Made by a program: the position numbers and the translations under genes. Source: Actinomycetospora sp. (GTDB taxonomy: Bacteria; Actinomycetota; Actinomycetes; Mycobacteriales; Pseudonocardiaceae). Taken from it: a stretch of DNA of 18,069 bases. The notes under the pieces are model-generated. The model did not search any database and was not told the origin of the DNA. It saw only the letters and a list, made by a program, of their open reading frames with translations. The stretch covers positions 1-18,069 of the forward strand of contig JAICLN010000034.1 in assembly GCA_025925615.1 (NCBI GenBank). Direction: 5' to 3'. Positions 2,098 to 18,069 of this stretch are shown piece after piece. Each line of letters opens with the position of its first letter. Within the stretch, counting starts at the first letter, position 1.

Positions 2098-3041
2098 CAG
2101 GAGTGCACCGTGAAGAAGCGCTCGTTGACCTGGCGGTGGTAGTAGAAGATGGCCCGCCCCATCTCCTCCTCGGTCCAGGTGATCGGCTCGAAGTCCGGGT
2201 CCACCCAGTAGCCGCCGGTGAAGAGCTCGTTGCGGTTGCCGGCCGGGTCGAAGAAGTAGGTGGTGTAACCGCGGGTGACGCCGTGCCGCGTCGGCGCCAC
2301 GTCGATGGTGACGCCGTGGTAGGCGAGCGTGTCGGCGGCGTCGCGGATGCCGTTCCAGTCGTCCATCCAGAACGCGAAGTGGTGCAGCGCCCCGTTCGGG
2401 CCGGTGATCACCGCGATGTCGTGCGGGGTGTGCGAGTGCTCCAGGAACGTCGCGAGCTGGTGCCCGTCGTTGGCGAGGATCTGCTCGGTGAGCCGGAACT
2501 CCAGCAGTTCGCAGAAGAACGCGGTGAACGCCTCGACGTCCTCGGCCATGACGAACAGGTGGTCCAGCCGGGGCGGCGCGATCCCGACGAGGTCCATCGG
2601 CCGGGGCGGCGGGTTGGTCTGCGGGAGCATGTTGCCGACCCGCTCGGTGCCGTGGGTGAGCTCGACGAGGTGGCCCGACGGCGCCTCGAACCGGATCGCC
2701 TCGCCCCAGCCCGGGCCGAGCTCGCGCAGCGCGAACCGCTTGACCGGGACGCCGGCCGCCTCGAGCTTCGTCGTGAAGTGGTCGAGGTCCTCGGGCGCGT
2801 GGAGCTTGAACGACATGTGGTCCAGGCCGTAGGTGGGCGCGGCGCGCAGGATCACCGAGTGGTGCTCGCGCTCGTCCCAGCACTTGAGGAACACCCGCTC
2901 GGCGCCGTCGCGCTCGTCGCGGGCGGTCTCGACGAGCCCGAGGACCTCGGTGTAGTAGGCGGTGGCGAGCTCGAGGTCGGGGACGCGGACCTCGACGTGC
3001 TGCAGCCTGAGGATGCGGTCGGACGTGGAATTTACGGGCAT
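2097..3041 (-). CDS. Type I extradiol dioxygenase, catechol 2,3-dioxygenase-like (second paralog)
   Basis: The 314-aa protein has two vicinal-oxygen-chelate halves (about 10-130 and 155-280), as in XylE-type catechol 2,3-dioxygenase, which opens a catechol ring next to the diol using Fe(II) and O2. The iron ligands are visible: H161 (RLDHLF), a His of the pair H220/H221 (GALHHFAFW) and E272 (NRNELF). The second-shell residues that align with XylE are also present: H207 (PHDIAV), H253 (PTRHGVTRG) and Y262 (TTYFFDP). The C-terminal half carries the family signature ending in FTGGYWVDPD. The ATG has a strong ribosome site (GAGGAG) that overlaps the stop of the preceding dioxygenase, 9 nt away. 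The next gene overlaps by one base. The protein is clearly a paralog of 3051-3965, so the pair probably differs in substrate range. The exact catechol is not readable from sequence. Confidence 0.93.
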   Translation of the reverse strand: MPVNSTSDRILRLQHVEVRVPDLELATAYYTEVLGLVETARDERDGAERVFLKCWDEREHHSVILRAAPTYGLDHMSFKLHAPEDLDHFTTKLEAAGVPVKRFALRELGPGWGEAIRFEAPSGHLVELTHGTERVGNMLPQTNPPPRPMDLVGIAPPRLDHLFVMAEDVEAFTAFFCELLEFRLTEQILANDGHQLATFLEHSHTPHDIAVITGPNGALHHFAFWMDDWNGIRDAADTLAYHGVTIDVAPTRHGVTRGYTTYFFDPAGNRNELFTGGYWVDPDFEPITWTEEEMGRAIFYYHRQVNERFFTVHS

Positions 3042-3050
3042 TCCGGCTCC

Positions 3051-3965
3051 TCAGGTGTGCATGCGCAGGAAGCGCTGGCTGATGACGTTCTCGTAGTAGA
3101 AGAGGCCCTTGCCGAAGTTGTCCTCGGTCCACGTGAGGATCTCGGTGTCGGGGTCGACCCAGTAGCCGCCGGTGAAGACCTCGTTGCGGATCCCGAGCGG
3201 GTCGAAGAAGTAGATGGTGTTGCCGCGGGTGACACCGTGGCGTGTGGGGCCCTGGTCGATCTGCACGCCGTTGTAGGCGAGGGTGTCGGCCGCCTTGCGG
3301 ACGTGGTCCCAGTCGTCGAGCCAGTAGGCCCAGTGGTGCAGCGCACCGTTGGGGCCGTTGACGATCGCGATGTCGTGCGGGGAGTTCGTCCGCCCGGCGA
3401 GCCAGACGCCGAGCTGGTGGCCGTTGCCGTCGAGCACCTGCTCGGTGAGCCGCAGGCCCAGCACGTCGATGAAGAACCGCGCGGATTCGGCGACCTCCTC
3501 CGCGTTGACCAGCATGTGGTCCATGCGCGGCGGGGCGATGCCGGGCAGGTCGGGCGGCGGGACCGGCGCGGGGTTGTGCTTGCCGAGCAGGTTGCCGGTC
3601 TTCTCGACGTCCCAGACCAGTTCCATGACCTGGCCGGACGGGACCTCGAAGCGCAGCGACTCGCCCTGGCCGAGCGCCTCGCCCCGGCTGACGCGGCTGG
3701 TCGGGCAGCCGTAGGCCTCGACCTTGTTCTCGAAGTCCGCGAGGTCGTCCTCGGCCTCCACGCGGAACGTGAAGGAGTCCATCCCGGTGCGCGGGTTGTA
3801 GCGCATCCGCAGCGAGTGGTGGTCCTCCTCGTCCCAGCACTTGAGGTAGACCGCGTCCTCGGTCCGGGCGACCTGCTGCAGGCCCATGACCTCGGTGTAG
3901 TAGGCGGTCGACAGGTCCAGGTCGGGAGTTCGCACATCCACGTGTGCGAGCCGCAGGATGCCCAC
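3051..3965 (-). CDS. Type I extradiol dioxygenase, catechol 2,3-dioxygenase-like (first paralog)
   Basis: The 304-aa protein is the first gene of the leftward operon. It has the same two-half extradiol fold as its neighbour, with Fe(II) ligands H150 (RMDHML), a His of H210/H211 (GALHHWAYW) and E262 (IRNEVF). Second-shell residues are H197 (PHDIAI), H243 (PTRHGVTRG) and Y252 (TIYFFDP). The segment around PTRHG and YFFDP is close to XylE of the toluene/xylene meta pathway. One oddity is LGIRNE where most family members, including the neighbour, read xGNRNE. The start is GTG at 3965, preceded by GAGAGGA about 7 nt upstream. The transcript probably begins near 4013 from the promoter at 4020-4025, leaving a leader of about 48 nt with a small perfect hairpin. 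The expected product is a 2-hydroxymuconic semialdehyde-type compound. The substrate, catechol or an alkyl/methoxy catechol, is not known. Confidence 0.93.
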   Translation of the reverse strand: MGILRLAHVDVRTPDLDLSTAYYTEVMGLQQVARTEDAVYLKCWDEEDHHSLRMRYNPRTGMDSFTFRVEAEDDLADFENKVEAYGCPTSRVSRGEALGQGESLRFEVPSGQVMELVWDVEKTGNLLGKHNPAPVPPPDLPGIAPPRMDHMLVNAEEVAESARFFIDVLGLRLTEQVLDGNGHQLGVWLAGRTNSPHDIAIVNGPNGALHHWAYWLDDWDHVRKAADTLAYNGVQIDQGPTRHGVTRGNTIYFFDPLGIRNEVFTGGYWVDPDTEILTWTEDNFGKGLFYYENVISQRFLRMHT

Positions 3966-4111: not shown

Positions 4112-4819
4112 GTGGCCGATCCGATGGCGATGCGCCGCGCCGTCGCGGGCTACGTCGAGGCCATCCACCGCGCCTACGTCGGTCAGGCGTCGACGTTCCC
4201 GCCCGCGGTCCGCGGCCGGATGCCGCTGCTGGCCGCCGGGCGGTTCACCGTCGTCGCCGCGGGCGCCCGCAACCTGCACGTCCTGGCCACGACGGAGCCC
4301 CTCGGCCCGCTGCAGGGCGAGGAGGTCGAGCTGCCGGGCTCGCTCGAGGGCATGGACTGGACGGTGCGGTTCTACGACCCGGTCGTGCTCCCCGCGCTCG
4401 GCCTGATCGACGAGGGGGCGGCGCCGCGTCCCGACGAGGTGCGCGGCTGCCTGGGGATCTCGACGGTGCTCTACCACCTGGTCACCCAGCCGGGCTCCGG
4501 GCTCTCGCCGCACCACGCGGGCCACGTCGGGTCCGGCCTGGCCAGTGGGCACTCCGCCGCCGCCCGGGACTTCGACACGCTGCGCTCCCGCGCCCGGGGG
4601 CGGGAGGCGCTGGTCGACGAGATGCAGGGGGCCGCGGTCGCCGGCCTCGCCCGCGCCCAGGTGCTCCTGGCCCGCGCGATCGCCCCGCACAACCCGGCGG
4701 TCGGCGACGCCGTCGACGCCGCGCTGCGCCCCGGGGCCGACCTCGACCCCGATGGCGTCCGCCGGGTCCTCGTCGGCGCCCTCGGGGGCACGGCGGCGAG
4801 CACCGTCGGGGCGGTCTGA
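4112..4819 (+). CDS. Unknown 235-aa protein heading the rightward catabolic operon
   Basis: I do not recognise this family. The GTG start is set by a strong AAGGAGG. The protein looks soluble, with no signal peptide or membrane segment. The N-terminal part reads AGYVEAIHRAYVGQ and FPPAVRGRMPLLAAGRF. A central, probably beta-rich region follows (FTVVAAGARNLHVLATTEPLG, MDWTVRFYDPVVLPALGLIDEG), then a stretch with GISTVLYHLVTQPGSGLSPHHAGH (residues about 112-136). The C-terminal half is helical and Ala/Arg-rich. The paired histidines in SPHHAGH could bind a ligand or metal, but this is speculation. It is separated by 1 nt from the IclR gene and is the first gene after the shared operator, so it is probably made together with the meta-cleavage enzymes. 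Possible roles include an accessory or substrate-handling protein; no function is claimed. Confidence 0.82.
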   Translation: MADPMAMRRAVAGYVEAIHRAYVGQASTFPPAVRGRMPLLAAGRFTVVAAGARNLHVLATTEPLGPLQGEEVELPGSLEGMDWTVRFYDPVVLPALGLIDEGAAPRPDEVRGCLGISTVLYHLVTQPGSGLSPHHAGHVGSGLASGHSAAARDFDTLRSRARGREALVDEMQGAAVAGLARAQVLLARAIAPHNPAVGDAVDAALRPGADLDPDGVRRVLVGALGGTAASTVGAV

Positions 4820-4820
4820 C

Positions 4821-5642
4821 GTGGACGCCACGCTGCAGTCGGTCAGCAACGCCGCCCGCCTGCTCAAGGCGTTCCTCTCCCGCGAGGAGACCCTCGGGGT
4901 CTCCGAGCTGGCGCGGCGGCTCGGGCTCGGGAAGAGCGCCGTGCACCGGCTCCTGGCGACGCTCGCCGCCGAGGGCCTCGTCGCGCGGGATCCCGACGGC
5001 GGGTACCGGCTCGGCCTGGTCATGTTCGAGCTGGGCGAGGCGGTGCGGTCGCACATGGACCTGCACGGAGCGGCCGGCCCGGTGCTCGTCGAGCTGCGCG
5101 AGCAGACCGGGGAGTCCTCGCAGGTGGGGGTGCTCGACGACGACCAGGTCGTCTACGTCGACCGCCTCGAGAGCAGCCACTCGCTGCGGCTGATGCACGA
5201 CGCCGGGCGCCGGGTCCCGCTGCACTGCACCAGCTCGGGGAAGGTGCTGCTGGCCGAGCTGGGAGAGGAGCACCTCGAACGGATCCTCGCCCGCGGCCTG
5301 CGGGCGCACACCCCGCACACCATCGTCACCCCGGAGGCGCTGCGCGCCGAGCTGGCCACCGTCCGGGAGCGCGGCTGGGCGGACGCGGTGAACGAGCGCG
5401 AGCTCGGCGTCGCGTCGCTGGCGGCGCCGGTCCGGGGTCCCGGGGGCAGCGTCGTGGCCGCGATCAGCGTCGGCGCCCCCATCACCCGCTTCCGCGCGAT
5501 CCCCCGCACCCGTCTGGCCCGCTGGGTGGTGGAGGCGGGAGAGGCGGTCTCCCGACGGCTCGGGTGGGCCCCGGAGGCGGAAAGATCGTCGTCGTCCCCC
5601 GTCCGCACGAACGGCCAGGAGGCCGCGCATGCCCGTGTCTGA
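4821..5642 (+). CDS. IclR-family transcriptional regulator (second of two)
   Basis: The 273-aa protein starts at GTG 4821, 1 nt after the previous stop. An IclR winged helix-turn-helix occupies about residues 5-70 (LQSVSNAARLLKAF, LGLGKSAVHRLLATL, YRLGLVMFELG). The effector domain spans about 80-250 (VVYVDRLES, LHCTSSGKVLLAEL, GWADAVNERELGVASLAAPV). A hydrophilic tail of about 20 residues runs into the start of the hydratase gene, with a 14-bp overlap. Placement among catabolic genes and close to the palindrome at 4036-4075 suggests it binds that site and controls its own operon, as many IclR proteins do (inference). The protein is clearly distinct from the other IclR protein (142-978), so a division of labour is possible, for example one sensing the substrate and the other a ring-cleavage product. 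Confidence 0.94.
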   Translation: MDATLQSVSNAARLLKAFLSREETLGVSELARRLGLGKSAVHRLLATLAAEGLVARDPDGGYRLGLVMFELGEAVRSHMDLHGAAGPVLVELREQTGESSQVGVLDDDQVVYVDRLESSHSLRLMHDAGRRVPLHCTSSGKVLLAELGEEHLERILARGLRAHTPHTIVTPEALRAELATVRERGWADAVNERELGVASLAAPVRGPGGSVVAAISVGAPITRFRAIPRTRLARWVVEAGEAVSRRLGWAPEAERSSSSPVRTNGQEAAHARV

Positions 5643-6441
5643 CTCCCTGGACGCTCCCGGAAAGGCCCGCGCGCTCTACGAGGCGCGGCGCACCCGGATC
5701 CCGATCGCACCCTTCACCGACGCCGACCCGTCGCTCGGGATGGCCGAGGGCTACGCGATCCAGCGGGAGCTGCTGCCGCTGCTGCTCGCGGACGGCGACC
5801 GCGTCGTCGGCTACAAGGTCGGGCTCACGTCGACGGCGATGCAGCGCATGGTCGGCGTCGACTCGCCCGACCACGGCCCGGTCCTCGCCTCCACGATCTA
5901 CCGCGACGGCGACGCGCTCCCGCTCGACCGCTTCATCGCCCCCAAGGTCGAGGCGGAGATCGTCTTCGTGATGGGGGAGCGGCTGCTCGGGCCGGGCGTG
6001 GGTCCGACCGACGCGGCGCGGGCCGTCGCCGGGGCGGCGGCGTCGATGGAGATCGTCGACTCCCGCATCGCCGACTGGCGGATCAAGCTCGCGGACACCG
6101 TCGCGGACCTGGCCTCCAACGGCGCCGTCGCCGTCTCCTCGCGGGTGGTGCCGCTCGAGGGCCTGGACACCCGCCTGATCGGGATGACGCTCACCCGCAA
6201 CGGCGAGCTGATCGACACCGGGGCGGGCGCGGCGGCGCTGGGCGACCCGCTCGCGGTTATCGCGTGGCTGGCGAACGTGCTCGGGGAGCACGGGGTGGCG
6301 CTGGAGCCGGAGCACCTGGTGATGACGGGGGCCCTGCACGCGGCGGTCCCGCTGGCCGCCGGCGAGGTGTACCGGGCGGAGTTCGACCGGCTGGGTCCGG
6401 TGTCCGTGCGGGTGACGGCGGGAGCGGGGGTGGCGGCATGA
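5629..6441 (+). CDS. dmpE: 2-oxopent-4-enoate (2-hydroxypenta-2,4-dienoate) hydratase
   Basis: The 270-aa protein adds water to 2-hydroxypenta-2,4-dienoate to give 4-hydroxy-2-oxopentanoate in the lower meta-cleavage pathway. It belongs to the MhpD/DmpE branch of the fumarylacetoacetase-like hydratase/decarboxylase family. Visible marks are GYKVGLTS (K63), the acidic metal-binding pattern KVEAEIVFV (E108, E110), SMEIVDSRIADWRIKLADTVADLAS (E141) and TGAGAAALGDPLAVIAWLANVLG. The wording DSRIADW...ADTVAD and GAGAAALG is close to DmpE, and length is normal. AGGAGG precedes the ATG at 5629, which lies inside the end of the IclR gene. The stop overlaps the next start as ATGA, so hydratase and decarboxylase are translationally coupled. 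In the known pathway these two enzymes form a complex, which fits the coupling. Confidence 0.92.
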   Translation: MPVSDSLDAPGKARALYEARRTRIPIAPFTDADPSLGMAEGYAIQRELLPLLLADGDRVVGYKVGLTSTAMQRMVGVDSPDHGPVLASTIYRDGDALPLDRFIAPKVEAEIVFVMGERLLGPGVGPTDAARAVAGAAASMEIVDSRIADWRIKLADTVADLASNGAVAVSSRVVPLEGLDTRLIGMTLTRNGELIDTGAGAAALGDPLAVIAWLANVLGEHGVALEPEHLVMTGALHAAVPLAAGEVYRAEFDRLGPVSVRVTAGAGVAA

Positions 6442-7205
6442 GTGCTGACGTGCAGCAGCTGGCGGCGCGGTTGTCGAAGGCGGTCGCGGAGCGGACGGCG
6501 ATCGACCCGCTGACCGACGAGGTGCCGGACCTCGACCTGGAGACCGGCTACGCGGTGCAGCGGGTGCTGCGCGACCAGGCGGGTCCGCTCGCCGGCTGGA
6601 AGCTCGGGGTCACCTCGCGGGCGAAGCAGGCGCAGGTCGGGGTGTCCGCGCCGGTGTGCGGGTTCCTCCCGGCGGCCGCCGCGCTCGACCTCGGGGAGCC
6701 GCTGTCGGTGTCCCCGCTGATCCAGCCGCGGGCGGAGCCGGAGATCGTGTTCGTGCTGGGCCGCGATCTCGCGGGCGCGCACTGCACGGCGGTGGACGTG
6801 CTCTCGGCGACCGCGGGCCTCGCCGTCGGGATCGAGGTCCTCGACTCCCGCTTCCGCGACTACCGCTTCACGATGGCCGACGTCGTCGCCGACAACACGT
6901 CGGCCGCCCGCTACCTCGTCGGGACCCCCGTCCCGCCGGCCGGCATCGACGCCCGCCTGGTGGGCGTGGTGCTCGAGAAGAACGGCGAGCTGGTCGCGAC
7001 GGCGTCCGGGGCCGCCTCGCTGGGGCACCCGGCGGCGGCGGTGGCGTGGCTGGTCCGCCGGCTCGCGCTGTCCGGGGAGGGTCTGCGGGCCGGCGAGGTC
7101 GTGCTCTCCGGCGGGCTGACCGCCGCGACCCCGGTGGTCGCGGGCGACGTGGTGACCGTGTCGATCGACCGGCTCGGCACCGTGGAGATGGCCATTTCGA
7201 GCTGA
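6438..7205 (+). CDS. dmpH: 4-oxalocrotonate (2-oxo-3-hexenedioate) decarboxylase
   Basis: The 255-aa protein decarboxylates the keto form of 4-oxalocrotonate to 2-hydroxypenta-2,4-dienoate. It is a paralog of the preceding hydratase but resembles DmpH/XylI in its specific blocks: GWKLGVTSRAKQAQVGV (K55) followed by CGFL, AEPEIVFVLG (E100, E102), GIEVLDSRFRDYRFTMADVVAD (E133), VVLEKNGELV and GHPAAAVAWL. The ATG at 6438 overlaps the hydratase stop (ATGA). With the tautomerase that follows, it marks the oxalocrotonate branch, which needs a 2-hydroxymuconic semialdehyde dehydrogenase upstream in the pathway. No such gene is in this window. After its stop a 93-nt gap with inverted repeats separates it from the tautomerase gene. 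Confidence 0.9.
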   Translation: MSADVQQLAARLSKAVAERTAIDPLTDEVPDLDLETGYAVQRVLRDQAGPLAGWKLGVTSRAKQAQVGVSAPVCGFLPAAAALDLGEPLSVSPLIQPRAEPEIVFVLGRDLAGAHCTAVDVLSATAGLAVGIEVLDSRFRDYRFTMADVVADNTSAARYLVGTPVPPAGIDARLVGVVLEKNGELVATASGAASLGHPAAAVAWLVRRLALSGEGLRAGEVVLSGGLTAATPVVAGDVVTVSIDRLGTVEMAISS

Positions 7206-7298: not shown

Positions 7299-7502
7299 AT
7301 GCCCCTGGTCCAGATCACGCTCGCCCGCGGGCGGACCCCCGAGCAGCTCGCCGCGCTCGGGGAGAAGGTCACCGCGGCGGTGACCGAGGCGGTGGGCGCC
7401 CCGGCGGGCAACGTCCGCGTCGTCGTCACCGAGTGCGAGCCGGAGCACTGGTTCGTCGGCGGCGAGTCGCTCGCCGAGCTGCGGGCCTCCGGCCGGCGGT
7501 GA
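7299..7502 (+). CDS. dmpI: 4-oxalocrotonate tautomerase
   Basis: The 67-aa protein is a short 4-oxalocrotonate tautomerase that converts the enol (2-hydroxymuconate) to the keto form used by the decarboxylase. Numbering from the proline exposed after Met removal, Pro1 (the catalytic base), Arg11 (ARGRTPEQ) and Arg39 (NVRVVVTE) are all in the canonical positions, and the HxxxGGE turn is kept. Position 50 is Trp (EHWFVGGE) where the classic enzyme has Phe50. An aromatic residue there is still compatible with activity, though substrate preference may differ. AAGGAG lies about 9 nt before the ATG at 7299. An in-frame ATG exists at 7227, but starting there would bury Pro1, so it is rejected. The Rieske ferredoxin gene follows after 4 nt. 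Confidence 0.92.
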   Translation: MPLVQITLARGRTPEQLAALGEKVTAAVTEAVGAPAGNVRVVVTECEPEHWFVGGESLAELRASGRR

Positions 7503-7506
7503 CGAG

Positions 7507-7863
7507 GTGCTCGTCGACCTCGGCGACCCGGCCGGGCGCTCCGCCTGGACGGTGAGCGCCGACGACGGCCGCGCGTTCGCCGTCTTCGCGCTCGACGATC
7601 AGTCGCTGCGGGTGACCGACGCCGCCTGCCCGCACAACGCCGGCCCGCTGGTCGAGGGGCAGGTCCGCGGGGCCGAGGTCCGCTGTCCGTGGCACTGGTA
7701 CCGCTTCGACCTCGACTCCGGGGCCTGCCGCACCACCGACCTGTTCGCGCTCACCGTGTACCCGGTGGTCGAGGTCGACGGGCGGCCGCACGCGGATGTC
7801 GGGGAGGCGCCCCCGACGATGTCGTGGTCCGAGCGGCTGCGCGCGCACGCCCGGGAGAGCTGA
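7507..7863 (+). CDS. Rieske-type [2Fe-2S] ferredoxin
   Basis: The 118-aa protein carries one Rieske centre: C41-P-H43, then C60-P-W-H63 (RCPWHWYRF), a complete Cys-X-His ... Cys-X2-His set with the usual spacing. Size and layout are those of the ferredoxin component of ring-hydroxylating oxygenases or of NirD-like small Rieske proteins. It would pass electrons from an unseen reductase to an oxygenase. The start is GTG 7507, only 4 nt after the tautomerase stop. The ribosome site is weak, so coupled translation is likely. It lies between the tautomerase and a P450, while the Rieske oxygenase that would be its natural partner lies at 10646-11992 on the other strand. It could serve either one; P450s normally use other ferredoxin types, so pairing with the P450 would be unusual. 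Confidence 0.9.
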   Translation: MLVDLGDPAGRSAWTVSADDGRAFAVFALDDQSLRVTDAACPHNAGPLVEGQVRGAEVRCPWHWYRFDLDSGACRTTDLFALTVYPVVEVDGRPHADVGEAPPTMSWSERLRAHARES

Positions 7864-10430: not shown

Positions 10431-10649
10431 TCAGTGGGGCGGTTCGTGCCCGATCGCGGTGTCTCCCGTCGGGGCGATCTCGCCGGTCCACCCGCACGCC
10501 GCGCACCAGCAGTAGAACCGCCGGTCGTCGCCCTCCCAGAACTCCGACGCGAGGTCGACCGGCTCCGCGCAGTTCGGGCAGAAGCGGGGGGCGTCGCGAC
10601 GGTGCGCCTCGGCGTCGGCGGCGAAGCGACGGTCGGGCGGGGAGCTCAC
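10431..10649 (-). CDS. Small zinc-ribbon protein coupled to the Rieske oxygenase
   Basis: The 72-aa protein has two Cys pairs, C24-P-N-C27 and C49-A-A-C52, plus an extra C47, forming a probable zinc ribbon (FCPNCAEPVDL ... YCWCAACGWTGEI). Its GTG start (10649) overlaps the TGA of the Rieske oxygenase in a GTGA junction. No separate ribosome site is seen, so translation is coupled to the oxygenase. This arrangement suggests a function linked to that enzyme, for example assembly, metal delivery or subunit contact (inference). A single CxxC-CxxC protein could instead bind iron like a rubredoxin, but the spacing and the surrounding residues look more like a zinc ribbon. No family name is claimed. 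Confidence 0.75.
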   Translation of the reverse strand: MSSPPDRRFAADAEAHRRDAPRFCPNCAEPVDLASEFWEGDDRRFYCWCAACGWTGEIAPTGDTAIGHEPPH

Positions 10650-11992
10650 CCGACCGGTCCCGAGTCCACCTGGGCGTCGGTGCCCGCGGCGAGCGTCGCG
10701 TCCCCGATCCCGCCCGCGGGCGTGAACGACGGACGCCCCGCGGCCTTGTCCTTCCCGACCTGCTCCGCGGCCGAGAGGTGGACCTTGCGGATGGTGTCGA
10801 GCATCGGGGAGTAGCGCGTGGAGCCCATGTCGCAGAAGTCCAGGGCGAACTGGGCGCCGCCGGCGTGGAACTTGTCCTTCTCGCACGGCAGGTCGATGCG
10901 CTCGTGCGGCTCGCGGATCGTGCCCAGCGGGTCCTGGCCGTTCTCCACCGCCGCCATCTGCTGCTTGAACATCTTGCGCAGCATCGAGACGCCGATGTCG
11001 GAGCGGCCGAGGTGCTCGGTGGTGCGGTCCGTGATCGGCCCCTGTGTGCACCAGGCCATGATGTCCTGGCCCTCGACGTAGTTGACGACGTGCTGCCCGC
11101 GCTCGTCGAACACCGGGATCTCGTAGTCCGGGATCGCCGGCTGCTCGATCGCCTCGTACCCCTCCGGGGCGTGGACGGTGTAGAGCATGAACCGCGTCGT
11201 CGTGCGGTTCACCGGCACGCGGATCTGCATCTGGTGGACGCCGCCGCCGCCGACGCGCATGTTGTACGGGAAGACCAGCGGGTGGCCGACCTTCCAGTCG
11301 TCGTTGTCCTCCGACGCCCCGGACAGGATCCGGCGCTTGATGATGCCCCACTCGAACGCGTCGAACCCGATGCGCTGGTGCTGCTTGCCGAAGGACGCGG
11401 GCGCCGTGAAGCCCTCGTGGTTGCCGATGAACTCGAAGTAGCGGCCGTGCAGGTGCTCGACGTGGTGCGGGTCGACGGCATTCTCCATGACCTGCACGTA
11501 GTTGCAGGGGATGTCGGCCCACCCGATGTCGCGGTAGCCGTCCATCACGTAGACGTCGAAGCGCGGCAGGAGCGGCGCGGGGTCCGGGCCGAGGAAGGCC
11601 CAGACGAGCCCGCCGAGCTCCTCGACCTTCCCGGCGGTCGCGCGGACCCGGCTCTGGAAGTTCGTGTTGTCCTTCTCGGCGGGCTGGTCGGTGCACGCGC
11701 CCTCGGTGTCGAACTTCCACCCGTGGTAGGGGCAGCGCAGCCCGTCGCCCTCGACGACCCCGTAGGCCATCGACGCCTTCCGGTGCGGGCACGGCTCCGG
11801 GATGATCCCGTACCGGCCCGACGGCGAGCGCCACAGCGCGAAGAACTCCCCGAGCAGCTCCACCCGCTTGACGGGGAACTCGGCCATCTCGCGGGCGAAC
11901 GCGACCGGGTACCAGTAGCGGCGCAGGACCTCGCCCATGCGGGTCCCGGGCTCGACGGCGGTGAGCTCGTCGTTCTGCTCGGCGGTCAGCAC
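10646..11992 (-). CDS. Rieske non-haem iron oxygenase, large subunit (phthalate dioxygenase/LigX type)
   Basis: The 448-aa protein has an N-terminal Rieske [2Fe-2S] domain with C68-P-H70 and C87-P-Y-H90 (RCPYHGWKF). A catalytic mononuclear-iron domain follows in which ENAVDPHHVEHLHG supplies D174 (the bridge to the neighbouring Rieske centre), H177 and H182. The opening LTAEQNDELTAVEPGTRMGEVLRRYW is typical of the phthalate 4,5-dioxygenase and LigX O-demethylase group, which act on anionic aromatic substrates. An aryl phosphate would also be anionic, which fits the synthase in this window (inference). The start is GTG 11992, preceded by GGGGAGG at 11998-12004. An upstream in-frame GTG at 12028 would overlap the predicted -10 box and is rejected. 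The zinc-ribbon gene overlaps its end. Ring dihydroxylation, monooxygenation and O-demethylation are all possible activities. Confidence 0.92.
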   Translation of the reverse strand: MLTAEQNDELTAVEPGTRMGEVLRRYWYPVAFAREMAEFPVKRVELLGEFFALWRSPSGRYGIIPEPCPHRKASMAYGVVEGDGLRCPYHGWKFDTEGACTDQPAEKDNTNFQSRVRATAGKVEELGGLVWAFLGPDPAPLLPRFDVYVMDGYRDIGWADIPCNYVQVMENAVDPHHVEHLHGRYFEFIGNHEGFTAPASFGKQHQRIGFDAFEWGIIKRRILSGASEDNDDWKVGHPLVFPYNMRVGGGGVHQMQIRVPVNRTTTRFMLYTVHAPEGYEAIEQPAIPDYEIPVFDERGQHVVNYVEGQDIMAWCTQGPITDRTTEHLGRSDIGVSMLRKMFKQQMAAVENGQDPLGTIREPHERIDLPCEKDKFHAGGAQFALDFCDMGSTRYSPMLDTIRKVHLSAAEQVGKDKAAGRPSFTPAGGIGDATLAAGTDAQVDSGPVG

Positions 11993-11997
11993 GGCTG

Positions 11998-12004
11998 CCT
12001 CCCC
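11998..12004 (-). promoter_or_regulatory. Ribosome binding site fixing the Rieske oxygenase start
   Basis: On the minus strand GGGGAGG ends 5 nt before GTG 11992. This site supports the shorter protein, whose N-terminus then matches the usual family start. Confidence 0.75.
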
Positions 12005-12026
12005 GTGGCTCGTGGTGGTGCGGCCC

Positions 12027-12032
12027 ACGCTA
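12027..12032 (-). promoter_or_regulatory. Predicted -10 box for the Rieske oxygenase operon
   Basis: TAGCGT on the minus strand is the same hexamer as in the dioxygenase promoter. It would place the transcript start near 12020, giving a leader of about 28 nt with the ribosome site inside. The degenerate operator at 12062-12080 lies 30 bp upstream, close to the 32 bp seen at the dioxygenase promoter. Confidence 0.4.
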
Positions 12033-12085: not shown

Positions 12086-13024
12086 CTATCCGTGCTCGCG
12101 GTGCAGCCGGGCCAGCATCCGGTTGTAGGCCTCGAGCGCCGAGTCGTCCTCGTCGAGGTCGCCGTCGTCGGACGCGGACCCGTCGTCCCCGGTGATCGCC
12201 GAGCGGCGCGCCGACTCCAACCAGGGGCCGAAGTCCACCCGTCCGCTGGGGTCCGAGACCCACATCCGGCCCAGCAGCACCATGATCACCATCATCAGCG
12301 CGTCGCCGCCGACCCACATGATCCCACCGCCGAGGTGGACGCCCTCCACGTCGTAGGCGGGGAACATCGTCGCGGGCGCGAGCATCAGCACGACGCCGAC
12401 GAGGGTGTCCACGCCCATCGCGACGAGCATCAGCACGAACCGCGCGAAGTACGCCGGGCGCTGCGGGAGGACGTCGACGCCGATGGCGGTGTGGAAGAAC
12501 AGCAGCCCCGTGACGAGGTAGAGCACCTGCTCGGCGTGGTGCAGCGCCATCGAGCCGGCCATCGCCTCCATGAACCCGGTGAGGTGGGTCAGGACGACGA
12601 CCGCCCCGTAGACGACGAGGACGGTGGCCGGGAAGGTGACCACGCGCGCGACGCGACCCGTGACGACGGCGTCGAACGCCCGGGCCCCGGAGCCGTGCAG
12701 GTGGTGGCGCAGCAGCTCCAGCGGGTGCGCGGTCACCCAGAACGCCGGGATCACCATGATCAGCATGAGGTGCATGACCATGTGCACCGCGAACGCGCCG
12801 TGCCCGAAGACCGCGATCCCGGAGTTGAAGGTCAGGACGGCGGCCGCGAGCGCGGCGGCGAAGGCGGCGGTGCGCCGGATCGGCCACGCGCCGTGCCGCA
12901 GCGCCCCGGTCAGGTAGAGCGCGCCCAGCACCAGCAGGACGGCGTCGACCCCCCACGAGGGCTCCCACGTGGTGAGCACGTCCGCCCACGCCGGTCCCGG
13001 CGTCGGACCCATCGGCCCCATCAT
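12086..13024 (-). CDS. ctaG: Cytochrome c oxidase assembly protein, CtaG family
   Basis: The 312-aa membrane protein has about seven hydrophobic segments (roughly 24-42, 52-73, 79-99, 128-148, 164-184, 193-216 and 232-252). The family mark is in segment three, VHMVMHLMLIMVIPAFWV, with the His pair H81/H85 and the following AHPLELLRHHL. Further histidines (HLTG, LHHAEQ, FFHTAIG) lie near other membrane segments and could bind copper. The cytoplasmic tail is acidic (SASDDGDLDEDDS). CtaG-type proteins help mature cytochrome oxidase, probably in copper handling (family knowledge). The ATG at 13024 has CTGGAG about 8 nt upstream. An L,D-transpeptidase gene lies upstream beyond a hairpin. I see no direct catabolic role; it is probably a housekeeping neighbour. 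Confidence 0.88.
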   Translation of the reverse strand: MMGPMGPTPGPAWADVLTTWEPSWGVDAVLLVLGALYLTGALRHGAWPIRRTAAFAAALAAAVLTFNSGIAVFGHGAFAVHMVMHLMLIMVIPAFWVTAHPLELLRHHLHGSGARAFDAVVTGRVARVVTFPATVLVVYGAVVVLTHLTGFMEAMAGSMALHHAEQVLYLVTGLLFFHTAIGVDVLPQRPAYFARFVLMLVAMGVDTLVGVVLMLAPATMFPAYDVEGVHLGGGIMWVGGDALMMVIMVLLGRMWVSDPSGRVDFGPWLESARRSAITGDDGSASDDGDLDEDDSALEAYNRMLARLHREHG

Positions 13025-13043
13025 TCGACCACTCCAGCCACGC

Positions 13044-13062
13044 CCACCATGGTGCTCCGCCC
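13044..13062. repeat. Copy 1 of a 19-bp repeat with palindrome CACCATGGTG
   Basis: CCACCATGGTGCTCCGCCC lies 20 to 38 nt upstream of the ctaG start. A second copy with one mismatch is at 14398-14416, upstream of the L,D-transpeptidase gene. Both contain the 10-bp palindrome CACCATGGTG in the same orientation. A regulator site is possible, but so is chance in this GC-rich sequence. Confidence 0.3.
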
Positions 13063-13065
13063 CCG

Positions 13066-13095
13066 CCCACCCGGCAGCGCGCCGGGGCGGGTGGG
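13066..13095 (-). terminator. Probable hairpin terminator after the L,D-transpeptidase gene
   Basis: CCCACCCG (13066-13073) and CGGGTGGG (13088-13095) form a perfect 8-bp stem around a 14-nt GC-rich loop that can pair further. It lies between the transpeptidase stop (13110) and the ctaG start. There is no T-run. Confidence 0.5.
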
Positions 13096-13109
13096 TCAGC
13101 GGACGTCGG

Positions 13110-14309
13110 TCACACCGGGAGCGCGGAGAGCTTCTGCCACTCCGGCCAGGTGAGCGACCAGTCGTAGATGTCGGTGCGCGGCATCGGGACCGGGCTGCCG
13201 GTGACCTCGACCGGGTCGCCGAACAGCGCGGTGTTGAAGTAGTTCTCCGCGTCCTGCGTCGAGAGGTTGACGCAGCCGTGGGTCACGTTCTCGCTGCCCT
13301 GGGCGCCCTCGGAGAGCGGGTTGGCGTGGATGAACTCGCCGTTGTTGGAGATCCGGACCGCCCAGTGCTCCGGCACGTTGTTGTAGCCGTACGCGGGGTT
13401 GGACATGAGCACCGTCTGCTGCTTGCTCATGACGACGTGGACGCCGTTGGTGGTGTTGCGGTTCGGGTCCGAGCCCAGCCCGTAGCTGGCCGGCACGTCC
13501 ATGAGGGTCTTCCCGGCCCCGTCCACCACGGTCATGTGGAACGAGTTCACGTCGGCCTTGACGATCTGCGCCCGGCCGATGGTGAAGTGTGAGCTCACGT
13601 TCTCCGCGCCCCAGCTGCCGCCGCCGACGTCGACACCCTGCAGGTTCGCGGCCACGGTCACCTGCGTCCCGGGCTTCCAGTAGCCCTCCGGCCGCCAGTG
13701 CACCCGCGAGCCCTGCTCGGTGTCGGGCAGCCAGCCCCACGAGCCCGTGGTCGGCACCGAGGTCTGCACCGAGAGCGCCCGCTGCGCGGCCGCCTTGTCG
13801 GCGACGGTGCCGTCGAACTGCACGATGATCGGCGCCGCGATCCCGACGGACGCCCCGTCCGCGATGTTGAGGTTCGCGCCGACCTTGTTCTGGGGCGTCA
13901 CCGTGGTGAACGAGCCGGTCAGCGGCTGGGCCGCGCCGTTCCCGTCGAGCACGACGCCCTTCCACGTGTACGTGGCGGCGTAGGCGAGGGTCACGGTGCT
14001 CGTCCAGCCGTCCGGGGTGGGACGCCCGGCCACCGCCGCGCCGTCCGGGCCGACGAGGGCGATGTCGGTGAGCCGGCCGTCGGCGACGTGGACGCTCGCC
14101 GGCTGGGCGGGAGCGACGTCGGTCGCGCCGGCGGCCGGCGTCGTCGTGACCCGCACCGGTGGGGCCGACGGGGCCTCCGCCTCCGACGACGACCCGCCCG
14201 ACGAGCCGGGACCCGCATTCGCCCGTTCGATGTTGCCCCACACGGTCACCGCGGCGAGCGCCACCGCGAACACGACCATCACCCCGAGCAGAGCCCGCCC
14301 GAGCGCCAT
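13110..14309 (-). CDS. L,D-transpeptidase (YkuD domain) with Ig-like modules
   Basis: The 399-aa exported enzyme makes 3-3 crosslinks in peptidoglycan in actinobacteria (family knowledge). An N-terminal hydrophobic segment (LLGVMVVFAVALAAVTVWG, about 7-25) is a signal peptide or membrane anchor; no lipobox cysteine follows it. A Ser/Glu/Pro linker (33-52) leads to two Ig-like modules (about 52-137 and 140-245) and a YkuD catalytic domain (about 246-372). The active-site motif is H344-G-C346-V-N-L-S, with H328 in EFIHANPL as a further active-site His, so the enzyme looks intact. I chose ATG 14309 because it begins directly before the hydrophobic segment. In-frame GTG codons at 14339 and 14324 would add a Cys-containing leader and have no better ribosome site, so the start is uncertain. 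It is not evidently linked to catabolism. Confidence 0.9.
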   Translation of the reverse strand: MALGRALLGVMVVFAVALAAVTVWGNIERANAGPGSSGGSSSEAEAPSAPPVRVTTTPAAGATDVAPAQPASVHVADGRLTDIALVGPDGAAVAGRPTPDGWTSTVTLAYAATYTWKGVVLDGNGAAQPLTGSFTTVTPQNKVGANLNIADGASVGIAAPIIVQFDGTVADKAAAQRALSVQTSVPTTGSWGWLPDTEQGSRVHWRPEGYWKPGTQVTVAANLQGVDVGGGSWGAENVSSHFTIGRAQIVKADVNSFHMTVVDGAGKTLMDVPASYGLGSDPNRNTTNGVHVVMSKQQTVLMSNPAYGYNNVPEHWAVRISNNGEFIHANPLSEGAQGSENVTHGCVNLSTQDAENYFNTALFGDPVEVTGSPVPMPRTDIYDWSLTWPEWQKLSALPV

Positions 14310-14462: not shown

Positions 14463-15596
14463 CTACCGCCCCGGGATGGGCCTGCCCGAGAAGAGGTACT
14501 TCTGGGCGAGGGCGACCGGGTCGTAGGCGGGTGCGGTCGACACCGCGGGCTCGGACTCGGCGGTCGTCACCGGCCGGGTCTGGACGATGCACACCGGATC
14601 GCCCGCGCGGCGGTGCCGGCCGATCACCCACTCCACGTCGACCGGGTGCCCGTAGTGCTCCTCGATCGAGATGACGGCCGCGGCGATCGCGCCGATCTGC
14701 TCGTCGTCGAGCACCCGCCGGTCGGCGAGCTTCGCGGGCATCTCGATCTCGGTGACGGCGCCGACCGCGAAGTCGAACGCGCTCACGATCTTCTTGTGAG
14801 CCACGTCGTAGCGCAGCACGCGGCCGTCGGCCTTGCCGATCTCGACGTGGTCGGGGTCGACGAGGCCCTGGACGATCGCCTCGCCCCAGCCCCAGCTGGT
14901 CTCGACGACGATGCGGTCGCGCTTGCCGGTGACGGGGTGCACCGAGAACGCCACGCCCGAGGCGCGGGCGTGGATGAGCTCGATGACACCGACCGCGATC
15001 GGCATGTCGTGGTGGCTGATGCCGCGGCGCAGCCGGTAGGCCAGGGCCCGGGCGGTGAACAGCGACCCCCAGCAGCGCCGCACCGACTCGAGCACGCGCT
15101 CGATCCCCGAGACGCCGAGGTAGGTGTCGAAGATCCCGGCGAACGACGCGTCGGCGGCGTCCTCCCCGGTGGCCGACGAGCGCACCGCGACCGGCACGTT
15201 GACGTCGACGCAGCGCAGGCACAGCTCCTCGTAGGCCTCGGTGAGCCGTCCGGCGAGGTGCTCGCTCATCGGTGTGGCCGTGAACAGCTCGCGGATCGCG
15301 GCCGAGGCCTGCTCGACCTCGGCGTCGGTCGGCCCGGTGCCCAGCCCGGCGAGCACCTCGTCGATCCGCCCGTCGAGACCGGACTCCCGGCAGTGGCGCC
15401 GGTAGGCGTCCACGGTCACGGCGAAGCCCTGCGGGACCTGGACCCCGGAGGCGAGCAGCTCGGCGAGGCGGCCCATCTTCGCGCCGCCGCACGCCACCGC
15501 CTGCTCGGGCGCGACCTCGTCGAGCCAGGCGATCGCCTCGCAGCTGTGCCGTTCCGGCGCGGCGCCCGTGGCGGGCTCCACCGGCGCCGACGTCAC
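14463..15596 (-). CDS. ATP-binding (PEP synthase N-domain) subunit of a probable aryl phosphate synthase
   Basis: The 377-aa protein is a stand-alone pyruvate-phosphate-dikinase/PEP-synthase ATP-grasp domain. The glycine-rich start is CGGAKMGRLAELLASG, followed by VPQGFAVTVDAY. The nucleotide-binding block is VPVAVRSSATGEDAADASFAG (about 135-154). Then come ASGVAFSVHPVTGKRD, ETSWGWGEAIVQG and the closing DVEWVI with VCIVQTRPVT. It lacks the phosphohistidine domain, which is encoded by the overlapping upstream gene (GTGA overlap; GTG start at 15596). Size and order match subunit 2 (about 40 kDa) of phenylphosphate synthase of Thauera aromatica and the CreH/CreI type 4-cresol-phosphorylating pair of Corynebacterium glutamicum (family knowledge). 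It would use ATP to phosphorylate the His of its partner. A true PEP synthase is unlikely, because that is one polypeptide with the ATP domain first. Confidence 0.87.
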   Translation of the reverse strand: MTSAPVEPATGAAPERHSCEAIAWLDEVAPEQAVACGGAKMGRLAELLASGVQVPQGFAVTVDAYRRHCRESGLDGRIDEVLAGLGTGPTDAEVEQASAAIRELFTATPMSEHLAGRLTEAYEELCLRCVDVNVPVAVRSSATGEDAADASFAGIFDTYLGVSGIERVLESVRRCWGSLFTARALAYRLRRGISHHDMPIAVGVIELIHARASGVAFSVHPVTGKRDRIVVETSWGWGEAIVQGLVDPDHVEIGKADGRVLRYDVAHKKIVSAFDFAVGAVTEIEMPAKLADRRVLDDEQIGAIAAAVISIEEHYGHPVDVEWVIGRHRRAGDPVCIVQTRPVTTAESEPAVSTAPAYDPVALAQKYLFSGRPIPGR

Positions 15597-17377
15597 GCGG
15601 GCACCTCCGGAGCGCTCCCGACGGCGGACGGCGCGACGTCCGCCGCCCGGGTCAGCACCGTCACGGTGCCGCTGGTGCCGTCCACCTCGACCTCGTCGCC
15701 ATCGTTGATCGACATCGTCGCGATGCCGGTCGCGGTCACCGTCGGGACGCCGTACTCGCGCCCGACGATCGCGGCGTGCGAGAGCATGCCGCCGCCGTCG
15801 CAGACCGCGCCGGCGATCTTGCCGAACGCCGGGGTCCAGTTCGGCGAGGTCGACTCGCAGACCAGGATCGAGCCGGGCTCGAGCCGGTGGAGCTCGTCCG
15901 AGGACTGCAGGATCCGTGCGATCCCACGCGCGGTGCCCTTCGCCGCGGCCACGCCGGTGATCGTCGTCTGGGCGGCGGCATCCGGGTTCTGGACGGCCCT
16001 GATCGACTGCGGGTTCAGTCCGAAGATCTCGATGAGGATCGGGTCCTCGACCGCCTCCGGGATGGTCCCCAGCACCTTGGGCATCTCGCCGCGGCGGTGG
16101 TGCCAGTGGTCGAAGTACTGGCGGCGGGCGTCGACCAGGCTGCGCAGGTTCGCGTCGTAGGGCTTGTCGCCGGTGGCGACGTCGCGCAGCTCGGGCCAGA
16201 ACAGGTAGAGCATGTCGTCCTGGTGGTCGGCCTTGACCCGGTTCGCCAGCTCCTGGCAGCCCCAGCGCAGCGGCAGCATGACCTTGAGATCGATGTAGTA
16301 GTTGTGGTCGTCCTGCCACCAGGGGAAGTTGGCCTCCTGGTTGGACGCGAGCCCGGCGTCGAAGACCGCCTGCTCCTCGCGGGTGAGCCCGGCGCGGGCG
16401 TTCTCGATCGCCTCCTCGCGCTCGGCCATCGCGTTGGCGGCCGCACGGTCGAAGTCGTGGGGGTCCTTGCGCTGCAGGAACGTCTTCACCAGGTCCAGCG
16501 GGATCGTGTTGTCCTCGATCCAGCTCGGGACGCCGACGTCGCAGGTCGCCTCGGCGCGGTAGCCGTAGATCTGGAGGAAGGCGTCGAACTCGGTCAGCCA
16601 GACCGAGGCGGCGCCGCCGTGGCGGGCGAGGGCGTCGCGCAGCTGCCCGCCGTCGTGTGCCTCGAAGACCGGCTCGAGCCCCGCGGCCCGCGCCGCCAGG
16701 GCGAGGTCGTAGAGCTTCCGGTCGGTCTCCATGATCTTGGTGTCCTCGCCCTGGAGGAACTTGCCGATCTCGTTCGGGTTGATGCCCATGTCCGCGCAGG
16801 CGCCGTAGAAGCCCAGGAAGTTCGCGAGCATCGGGTACATGACGCCGAAGTGGATCTCCATCGCCCGCTTGTGGTAACGCCGGGACTGCCCGAGCAGGGT
16901 CGGGAGGTCGTCGCCCCGGACCTGGGTGAAGTCGATGCCGCGGAAGTACGACCAGGTGTTCTCCAGCTCGTCCCGGCCGGACTCCCAGATGCTGCGGTAG
17001 TTGGTGAGGAAGTGCGGGAGGTTGGTCGCGATGCGCCCGGCGCGCGCCTCGATCTCGCGGGGGTCGGTCTCGGGCAGCGCCGAGCCGTAGAGGTGGGTGC
17101 CGGCGAACCGGGCGGTGACACCGCGGCCGGGCGGGAGCGGCAGCGACTCCGCGGCGTGCTGGGTGCCCCAGCAGTAGCCGTCGCCGCTCCAGAGCGTCGA
17201 GCCGAGCGGCGTCAGGCCGCGCGACCAGTGGAAGTCGAGGAACCAGAACGAGTTCTCGTCACCGGGCCGGAACGGGCCCGCGGGGTCGACGATCCACGGC
17301 ATGTCGAAGTACTCGGGCTTGTAGCCCGGGTACCACTCGCCCGTGCTGTACGCGTCGACCGGCACGACGTTCGCCAT
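15593..17377 (-). CDS. Phosphohistidine subunit of a probable aryl phosphate (phenylphosphate) synthase
   Basis: The 594-aa protein has a long N-terminal and central part (about 1-465) of PEP-utilising-enzyme type, rich in Trp, Tyr and Phe, for example ENSFWFLDFHWSRGL and NFPWWQDDHNYYIDL. A C-terminal swivelling phosphohistidine domain follows (about 470-577). The phospho-accepting residue is H534 in DGGGMLSHAAIVGREYGVP, the family TSH/LSH motif, preceded by STSPNWTPAF. It has no ATP-grasp domain and no PEP/pyruvate-binding barrel, so it must work with the overlapping gene product. Size fits subunit 1 (about 70 kDa) of phenylphosphate synthase. It would carry phosphate from ATP to the hydroxyl of a phenol. 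The ATG at 17377 has GAGGAGGG 4 nt upstream; a longer in-frame start at 17443 would run through the operator and is rejected. Other phosphohistidine transferases of this superfamily act on drugs such as rifampicin, so the substrate remains an inference from context. Confidence 0.85.
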   Translation of the reverse strand: MANVVPVDAYSTGEWYPGYKPEYFDMPWIVDPAGPFRPGDENSFWFLDFHWSRGLTPLGSTLWSGDGYCWGTQHAAESLPLPPGRGVTARFAGTHLYGSALPETDPREIEARAGRIATNLPHFLTNYRSIWESGRDELENTWSYFRGIDFTQVRGDDLPTLLGQSRRYHKRAMEIHFGVMYPMLANFLGFYGACADMGINPNEIGKFLQGEDTKIMETDRKLYDLALAARAAGLEPVFEAHDGGQLRDALARHGGAASVWLTEFDAFLQIYGYRAEATCDVGVPSWIEDNTIPLDLVKTFLQRKDPHDFDRAAANAMAEREEAIENARAGLTREEQAVFDAGLASNQEANFPWWQDDHNYYIDLKVMLPLRWGCQELANRVKADHQDDMLYLFWPELRDVATGDKPYDANLRSLVDARRQYFDHWHHRRGEMPKVLGTIPEAVEDPILIEIFGLNPQSIRAVQNPDAAAQTTITGVAAAKGTARGIARILQSSDELHRLEPGSILVCESTSPNWTPAFGKIAGAVCDGGGMLSHAAIVGREYGVPTVTATGIATMSINDGDEVEVDGTSGTVTVLTRAADVAPSAVGSAPEVPA

Positions 17378-17520: not shown

Positions 17521-18069
17521 ATGAGCACCCCCCGAGCGCTGCTGCTCGACATCGGCGGAGTCCTGCTCACCTCGGCGCACGAGCGGATGTCCGACCTCGG
17601 GGCCCGGCACCCGGACCTCGCGGCGTTCTTCGACGTCCGCGGTCTGCTCGGTCCGCGCCCCGACGAGGCCTGGGACGCCGTGCTCGCCGAGCGGGCGAGC
17701 GAGCGCGGGTACTGGGCGGCCCGGGCGGCCGAGTACGCGGAGCTCGTGGGGGACCGGTCGGGTCGGGGCGTGCCGGCCCTCATGGACGTGCTCTATCCCG
17801 ACGACGAGACCGACCCGGTCGGGCCCTTCCGCCCCGAGGTCATCGCGCTCATGGACGACGCCCGGGCGGCGGGCCTCGTCGTGGCGGCGCTGACCAACGA
17901 CCTCGCGGCCTTCCACGGCGAGGCGGACCTGGGCGACCACCCGGTGCTCGGCCGCTTCGACGTGGTCGTCGACGGGTCCGTGACGGGGGTGCTCAAGCCC
18001 GACCCGGGCGCCTACCGGCTGGCGGTCGAGGCCGTCGGCCGGGCCGCGGACGAGATCGTGTTCCTCGAC
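17521..18069 (+). CDS. HAD-superfamily hydrolase (partial, runs off the right edge)
   Basis: The 183 visible residues have the haloacid-dehalogenase motifs in order. The nucleophile D10 is in LLLDIGGVLL, motif II is T125-N126 in AALTNDLAAF, motif III is K159 in GVLKPDPGAYRLAV, and motif IV begins at the edge (IVFLD). A cap insert of about 80 residues lies between motifs I and II. The DIGG form, with Gly in place of the second Asp, is common among phosphatase-like members of subfamily I. The gene is divergent from the aryl phosphate synthase operon, with 143 nt between start codons, and may share the operator at 17443-17461. It could be a phosphatase for aryl phosphates or another small phosphate ester, or a dehalogenase-like hydrolase. 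The sequence does not decide. The stop codon lies outside the window. Confidence 0.85.
   Translation, partial: MSTPRALLLDIGGVLLTSAHERMSDLGARHPDLAAFFDVRGLLGPRPDEAWDAVLAERASERGYWAARAAEYAELVGDRSGRGVPALMDVLYPDDETDPVGPFRPEVIALMDDARAAGLVVAALTNDLAAFHGEADLGDHPVLGRFDVVVDGSVTGVLKPDPGAYRLAVEAVGRAADEIVFLD

Follow-up and report, generated by a model that had tools for sequence, protein, structure and literature searches.

What does a dikinase of the phosphoenolpyruvate (PEP) synthase type, divided over two genes, do next to genes for oxygenases and aromatic ring cleavage? The question is raised by an 18,069-nucleotide stretch of Actinomycetospora sp. (contig JAICLN010000034.1 of assembly GCA_025925615.1), analysed as a whole and called the window here; its contig is part of a draft genome of 3.5 Mb that is 59.8% complete. 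A first-pass annotation, made from the letters alone, had read the gene pair as the entry to an aerobic pathway in which a phenol is phosphorylated, oxygenated, dephosphorylated and then cleaved in the meta position, an interpretation that our analysis partly supports. We give about an even chance to a version in which a guaiacol-type phenol becomes an aryl phosphate, a Rieske oxygenase removes its O-methyl group, and the resulting catechol undergoes meta cleavage.

The split kinase pair and its relatives

The phosphohistidine subunit (H) is encoded at 15593-17377 on the minus strand (ATG start, 594 amino acids, 65.5 kDa), and its candidate phospho-acceptor His534 sits within CDGGGMLSHAAIVGREYGVP. 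The ATP-grasp subunit follows at 14463-15596 on the same strand (GTG start, 377 amino acids, 40.3 kDa); its first 4 bases are also the last 4 of the H gene. Gene order, overlap and the predicted sizes near 66 and 41 kDa were therefore read correctly at the first pass. Pfam places the PEP-utilizers mobile domain close to the C-terminus of H (E 3.5e-23); in the ATP-grasp subunit PPDK_N covers most of the length (E 1.8e-95), and neither protein has a further PEP-utiliser domain. Because an H orthologue is kept in 17/17 Actinomycetospora congeners at 81-92% identity, the split is not a chance event, and the pair is confirmed as a genuine feature. Judged from sequence, its architecture supports a putative small-molecule (phenol) dikinase rather than a PEP synthase.

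Reference clusters of the Cre, Pps and Hpe types were obtained by plasmid tblastn. The window H is 29.2-32.1% identical to their CreH-, PpsA- and HpeH-type proteins, which are 44.6-48.1% identical among themselves, and the ATP-grasp subunit is 33.5-39.6% identical to the partner subunits. On the H tree the window protein belongs to a clade of its own, clade X (support 100/100), outside the CreH/PpsA/HpeH clade. It lacks the T/S-xx-GG-xxx-H motif with Met two positions before the His and has Cys526 and Leu532 instead, at positions that are nearly invariant in the alignment. The likeness to the Pps and Cre pairs that had been proposed thus stands for the split architecture, but not for clade membership, sequence identity or the residues around the His. 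A further tree, of the C-terminal region and covering the H subunit only, groups H with the split phenol kinases and separates it from six single-chain proteins found in relatives (96/89, midpoint-rooted). The phylogenetic test named at the first pass, in which a firm place among PEP synthases or drug phosphotransferases would have counted against the reading, does not refute it for this subunit. The modelled H fold is that of rifampin phosphotransferase (RPH) minus its ATP-grasp domain, RPH being the nearest solved fold among the matches listed; since the same was reported for HpeH, this counts for a phenol kinase.

Aerobic pathways beginning with a split phenol kinase are already known, namely those of CreHI and HpeHI (PMC12167813, PMC9618137), so only the combination with a Rieske oxygenase is new in the aerobic phenol-phosphorylating route that the annotation proposed. 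We found no published pairing of a split phenol kinase with a Rieske oxygenase in a search of the open-licence PMC literature. The closest parallel is HpeHI, the hydroxyphenylethanone kinase of Rhodococcus rhodochrous GD02, which likewise has separate ATP-grasp and substrate-binding/swivel proteins, an RPH-like H fold, a conserved phospho-acceptor His and a role in aerobic aromatic catabolism (PMC12167813, PMC9618137). The window H is, however, only 32% identical to the Hpe-type reference L009, reads CDxGGxLSH at the His where HpeH reads SDIGGIMCH, and lies near a Rieske oxygenase and catechol dioxygenases rather than a biotin carboxylase cluster. CreHI, the 4-cresol kinase of Corynebacterium glutamicum, is also aerobic and split, with an oxygenase and a phosphatase in its pathway (PMC12167813). 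Comparison through the Cre-type clusters L005 and L006 gives 32% identity for H, and these clusters carry a P450, a short-chain dehydrogenase/reductase, a ferredoxin and an aldehyde dehydrogenase; over the stretch covered, neither a Rieske oxygenase nor a catechol dioxygenase is among their genes. PpsAB, the phenylphosphate synthase represented by Azoarcus sp. KH32C (L007), shares the split and the order H then ATP-grasp; identity is 29%, and the phenylphosphate carboxylase genes that follow in L007 have no counterpart among the annotated genes of the window. RPH differs in being one chain of ~860 residues (20% identity), the window pair being two proteins. Eight Actinomycetospora genomes (G002, G005, G006, G009, G011, G012, G013 and G017) encode an additional H-like protein with 38-40% identity to the window H.

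Oxygenases beside the split kinases

The Rieske oxygenase of the window (10646-12028, minus strand) is of the phthalate type: it has Rieske and LigXa_C-type domains, and its closest solved chains are phthalate dioxygenases (nearest 7fjl, E 2.2e-44). A tree splits the Rieske proteins of this study into two groups, F3a and F3b, and the window protein falls in F3b.

Clade-X kinases were collected at 72 places (the window, one further congener and 70 loci), about half of which are in Actinomycetospora or Pseudonocardia and hence not independent. The 70 loci come from these two genera, Amycolatopsis, Nocardioides, mycobacteria, Gammaproteobacteria and others; in an even sample of 394 Actinomycetes genomes H occurs in 4, the window's own included. 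A Rieske oxygenase is in reach at 41 of the 72 places, a LigM/DesA-type enzyme at 6 and a phenol- or toluene-type monooxygenase at 12, with zero overlap; the remaining 13, several on short contigs, have none of the three. At 18 loci the distance between F3a and clade X is 1.4-2.9 kb, and 39/72 loci include a HAD protein. We prefer O-demethylation as the putative oxygenase reaction because Rieske and LigM/DesA-type genes, the latter related to tetrahydrofolate-dependent O-demethylases, exclude each other beside clade X. On the H tree the two LigM loci from Nocardioides group among Rieske loci from Amycolatopsis and Haloechinothrix, while three other LigM loci are close to Rieske loci L096 and L111 (the tree omits the sixth, L123, whose H is partial). 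By inspection of this tree, the exchange probably occurred at least twice.

Thirty genomes chosen from these loci give the same picture: a LigM-like protein (at least 67% identical to that of L093) is found in 7, F3a (at least 75% identical to that of L092) in 6 plus one at 63%, and no genome of the 30 has both a close LigM-like copy and F3a. More distant LigM relatives (41-50%) are present in the genomes of L092, L093 and L076. The LigM-like protein matches the curated models of both DesA (526 bits, cut-off 800) and LigM (479 bits, cut-off 580), below both cut-offs, and is absent from the window locus; an MTHFR-like gene adjoins its gene in both Nocardioides loci. A class-wide check of the LigM-like subfamily at the same 67% or more returned a single genome, already known, too few to count.

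Another protein recurs at these loci. F32, a MetE-like protein of ~384 amino acids, is found beside the clade-X kinase in 11/72 loci (L097, L099, L105, L106, L111, L118, L121, L123 and others), with LigM-type, Rieske-type and phenol-hydroxylase-type genes as neighbours. The ten called copies share a pattern of H-x-C, E and C, which we take to resemble the zinc ligands of MetE; a PDB search with F32 gave no match. F32 was considered as the demethylase but is at most a candidate, because it also stands beside phenol hydroxylase genes.

The F3b group is tied to a second split kinase, F62b, of the Cre/Pps/Hpe clade and defined by at least 65% identity to L142. F62b is present in 12 of the 30 clade-X genomes, all 12 of which have F3b, and in each its gene directly precedes F3b (one copy is a 69-residue fragment at a contig end). 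At six of these loci (L135-L139 and L142) two catechol 2,3-dioxygenases, a histidine phosphatase, the ATP-grasp subunit, H and F3b follow one another in that order. Most of these compact operons go on with F10, a small Cys-rich protein, and a HAD protein; two of them, both from Nocardioides, also include a reductase and genes of the lower meta pathway. The remaining six F62b-F3b loci have some of the operon genes elsewhere or cut off.

The 394-genome sample served as a check not selected by clade X. Besides the window's own genome, F3b occurs in 14 of the other 393, and F62b adjoins it in 13 of these, the 14th (L191) being cut by the contig end. F10 directly follows F3b in 14/14 and a HAD protein is near in 11/14. 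Clade X is present in three, whose contig numbers identify them as the assemblies G069, G064 and G067 already included in the first set; the other 11 (10 kinase-adjacent and the one cut) are new cases. Because F62b forms compact operons with F3b, phosphatases and catechol 2,3-dioxygenases, these neighbourhoods fit a kinase-Rieske scheme; the proposed order of phenol, aryl phosphate, oxygenation, dephosphorylation and meta cleavage has its counterpart in them.

Actinomycetospora lacks F62b at the 65% threshold (0/18 genomes of the genus), yet keeps the rest of the cluster plus clade X; F3b and clade X are each present in 18/18. The cluster could be compared fully in 15 congeners, in part in G011 and not in G004. 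In 15/15 of those fully covered we find the Rieske gene adjoined by F10, the Rieske ferredoxin, the DmpH-like and DmpE-like genes, two IclR genes, F19, and both catechol dioxygenases (92-99% identity) directly followed by the histidine phosphatase. More distant kinases of the Cre/Pps/Hpe clade (46-49%) occur in 10/18 genomes. The other eight, among them single-contig G003 and incomplete G000, have no match to that clade at E 1e-60, which leaves clade X as the only split kinase of that kind detected there. In G002, G017 and G006 (L179, L180 and L181) a Cre/Pps/Hpe-clade kinase, 47-48% identical to F62b, lies with an ATP-grasp partner ~15 kb from the clade-X pair.

A proposed pathway and its alternatives

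The analysis establishes the genes, the fold, the catalytic His, the phylogeny and the conserved linkage; the chemical steps, the substrate and the choice of O-demethylation over ortho-hydroxylation are what we infer from them. The two-component dikinase would phosphorylate a simple phenol on its hydroxyl group, with a methoxyphenol such as guaiacol as the likeliest substrate, converting ATP and the phenol to aryl phosphate, AMP and phosphate by a relay through His534; such a relay is described for PpsAB, HpeHI and RPH (PMC12167813). The phosphate may then give the neutral phenol an anionic handle for the phthalate-type Rieske oxygenase, which would remove the O-methyl group to leave catechol monophosphate. 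Catechol would be released by either of two candidate phosphatases, the HAD-family hydrolase F5 (17521-18069, plus strand; PF00702), which is divergent from H and runs off the window, or the histidine phosphatase F38 (982-2097, minus strand; PF00300). Two catechol 2,3-dioxygenases (a, 3051-3965, 360.4 bits; b, 2097-3041, 360.7 bits; both on the minus strand, TIGR03211, cut-off 320.2) and the lower meta pathway would complete the degradation. For the oxygenation step of the first-pass annotation, the Rieske gene stands; judging by the Rieske-to-LigM/DesA exchange beside clade X in relatives, its reaction is more probably O-demethylation than ring hydroxylation.

The best-known substrates of phthalate-type Rieske oxygenases carry carboxylates. 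We therefore consider, at somewhat less than an even chance, that the phosphate is a removable anionic handle by which carboxylate-requiring enzymes, the phthalate-type Rieske oxygenase and, in relatives, the non-homologous LigM/DesA-type methyltransferase, demethylate guaiacol-type phenols that have no carboxylate, two split kinases serving this end: F62b in the compact operons and clade X in the window. Aryl phosphate would then gain another aerobic fate besides P450 oxidation (Cre) and carboxylation (Hpe), lignin use would gain a new O-demethylation route, and the conserved kinase-Rieske arrangement, seen with F3b in those 14 of 393 sampled genomes, would have a function.

Several observations weigh against O-demethylation of an aryl phosphate. 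Two genes (12086-14309) part the window's kinase pair from its Rieske gene, which is ~2.4 kb away and in a separate transcription unit, and no reductase gene is found within the window. F3b lacks an adjoining F62b in 4/30 genomes. The relatives that show the LigM swap share 57-62% identity with the window in H, and none belongs to the window's genus. Other monooxygenases of the Phenol_Hydrox family are present in 16/18 genomes of the genus (at four loci 23-26% identical to DmpN-type queries, and one 47% to a TmoA-type query), so the kinase need not be the sole route into phenols. Finally, the 12 clade-X loci that adjoin phenol- or toluene-type monooxygenases (in mycobacteria, Gammaproteobacteria and others) fit neither the O-demethylation nor the ortho-hydroxylation version well, and the window's Rieske family was found at E 1e-60 in 0/11 genomes of the phenol-hydroxylase type (mycobacteria, Nocardia, Phytohabitans, Streptomyces, Gammaproteobacteria and the archaeal-labelled L116). 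The kinase of such genomes may serve to trap phenols, by analogy with the proposal for HpeHI, or may take another substrate. At L101, L103, L105, L106, L109, L110, L112, L114, L115 and L117 its genes lie inside or beside clusters for phenol hydroxylase and meta cleavage.

The main rival takes phenol itself as substrate. The Rieske oxygenase would open the way from phenyl phosphate to catechol either by ortho-hydroxylation, with dephosphorylation to follow, or by dioxygenation at C1/C2, in which the phosphate is lost; the LigM neighbours in relatives would belong to a separate methoxyaromatic pathway. Three observations would suit it: the Rieske protein is the sole oxygenase ahead of catechol 2,3-dioxygenase in the kinase-Rieske operons, clade X of mycobacteria and others adjoins phenol hydroxylase genes, and HpeHI phosphorylates phenol slowly (PMC12167813). 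We still think it unlikely: the LigM/DesA-type enzyme that takes the place of the Rieske oxygenase at 6 loci cannot hydroxylate a ring, and dioxygenation at C1/C2 would leave the phosphatases without a task.

Alternatively, the clade-X kinase could be separate from the Rieske oxygenase, serving for example in intracellular phenol trapping, a role proposed for HpeHI (PMC12167813), while the window's Rieske enzyme takes an aromatic substrate that is not phosphorylated. The two are not in one operon in the window, and aryl phosphate is not required at the loci beside phenol hydroxylases. A split kinase, however, adjoins F3b in 13/13 sampled genomes with a long enough flank, and F3a stays close to clade X at the 18 loci noted above, so we hold this separation to be distinctly improbable.

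A further alternative concerns the P450 (8043-9230, plus strand; PF00067). The first-pass annotation listed it with a Rieske oxygenase, two extradiol dioxygenases and a phosphatase, all of which are present by Pfam and NCBIfam, and counted it among the O2-dependent enzymes. P450s act on aryl phosphate in the Cre pathway, and a similar route, with the Rieske oxygenase serving another pathway, would account for the P450 gene in the cluster. It is at the cluster in only 7/15 covered congeners, against 15/15 for the Rieske gene; it appears dispensable and is probably accessory, we set it aside as the main oxygenase, and such a route is very unlikely.

A split PEP synthase or drug phosphotransferase is an even poorer prospect and was set aside, since, although RPH is the nearest solved fold among those listed and the NCBIfam models of PEP synthase (TIGR01418, 285.8 and 87.4 bits for the two subunits, cut-off 739.75) and RPH (RIF_Ptrans_rph, 227.7 and 102.4 bits, cut-off 999) match both subunits, all scores are below cut-off, both enzymes are single chains where the window has two genes, Pfam shows no domain beyond PPDK_N and PEP-utilizers, H is apart from the single-chain proteins on the tree, and the catabolic neighbourhood is constant.

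Other genes of the window

Of the two genes that separate the Rieske gene from the kinase pair (12086-14309, minus strand), one is weakly CtaG-like and the other, which has no NCBIfam match, by eye resembles an L,D-transpeptidase; clustering over the 72 places found the family of each in 8. F10 (10431-10649, minus strand, by gene call), directly after the Rieske gene, encodes 72 amino acids with four Cys pairs, and its L071 relative has no Pfam match. It may serve the Rieske oxygenase as electron carrier or assembly factor.

A Rieske-type ferredoxin (7507-7863, PF00355), a candidate electron donor, precedes the P450 on the plus strand. Before it on that strand are lower meta-pathway genes: a 4-oxalocrotonate/2-hydroxymuconate tautomerase (7302-7502; NF002571, 65.1 bits, cut-off 55), a 2-oxo-3-hexenedioate decarboxylase-like (DmpH-like) gene (6450-7205; TIGR03218, 234.8 bits, below the cut-off of 350.55) and a 2-oxopent-4-enoate hydratase-like (DmpE-like) gene (5629-6441; TIGR03220, 235.3 bits, below the cut-off of 408.8). 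Regulators of the IclR family are encoded at 4821-5642 (plus strand) and 142-978 (minus strand), both matching NCBIfam IclR-type models below cut-offs. F19 (4124-4819, plus strand, 231 amino acids) has no NCBIfam match, and its L076 relative has no Pfam match; in 15/15 covered congeners its gene has an IclR gene on one side and the catechol dioxygenases on the other.

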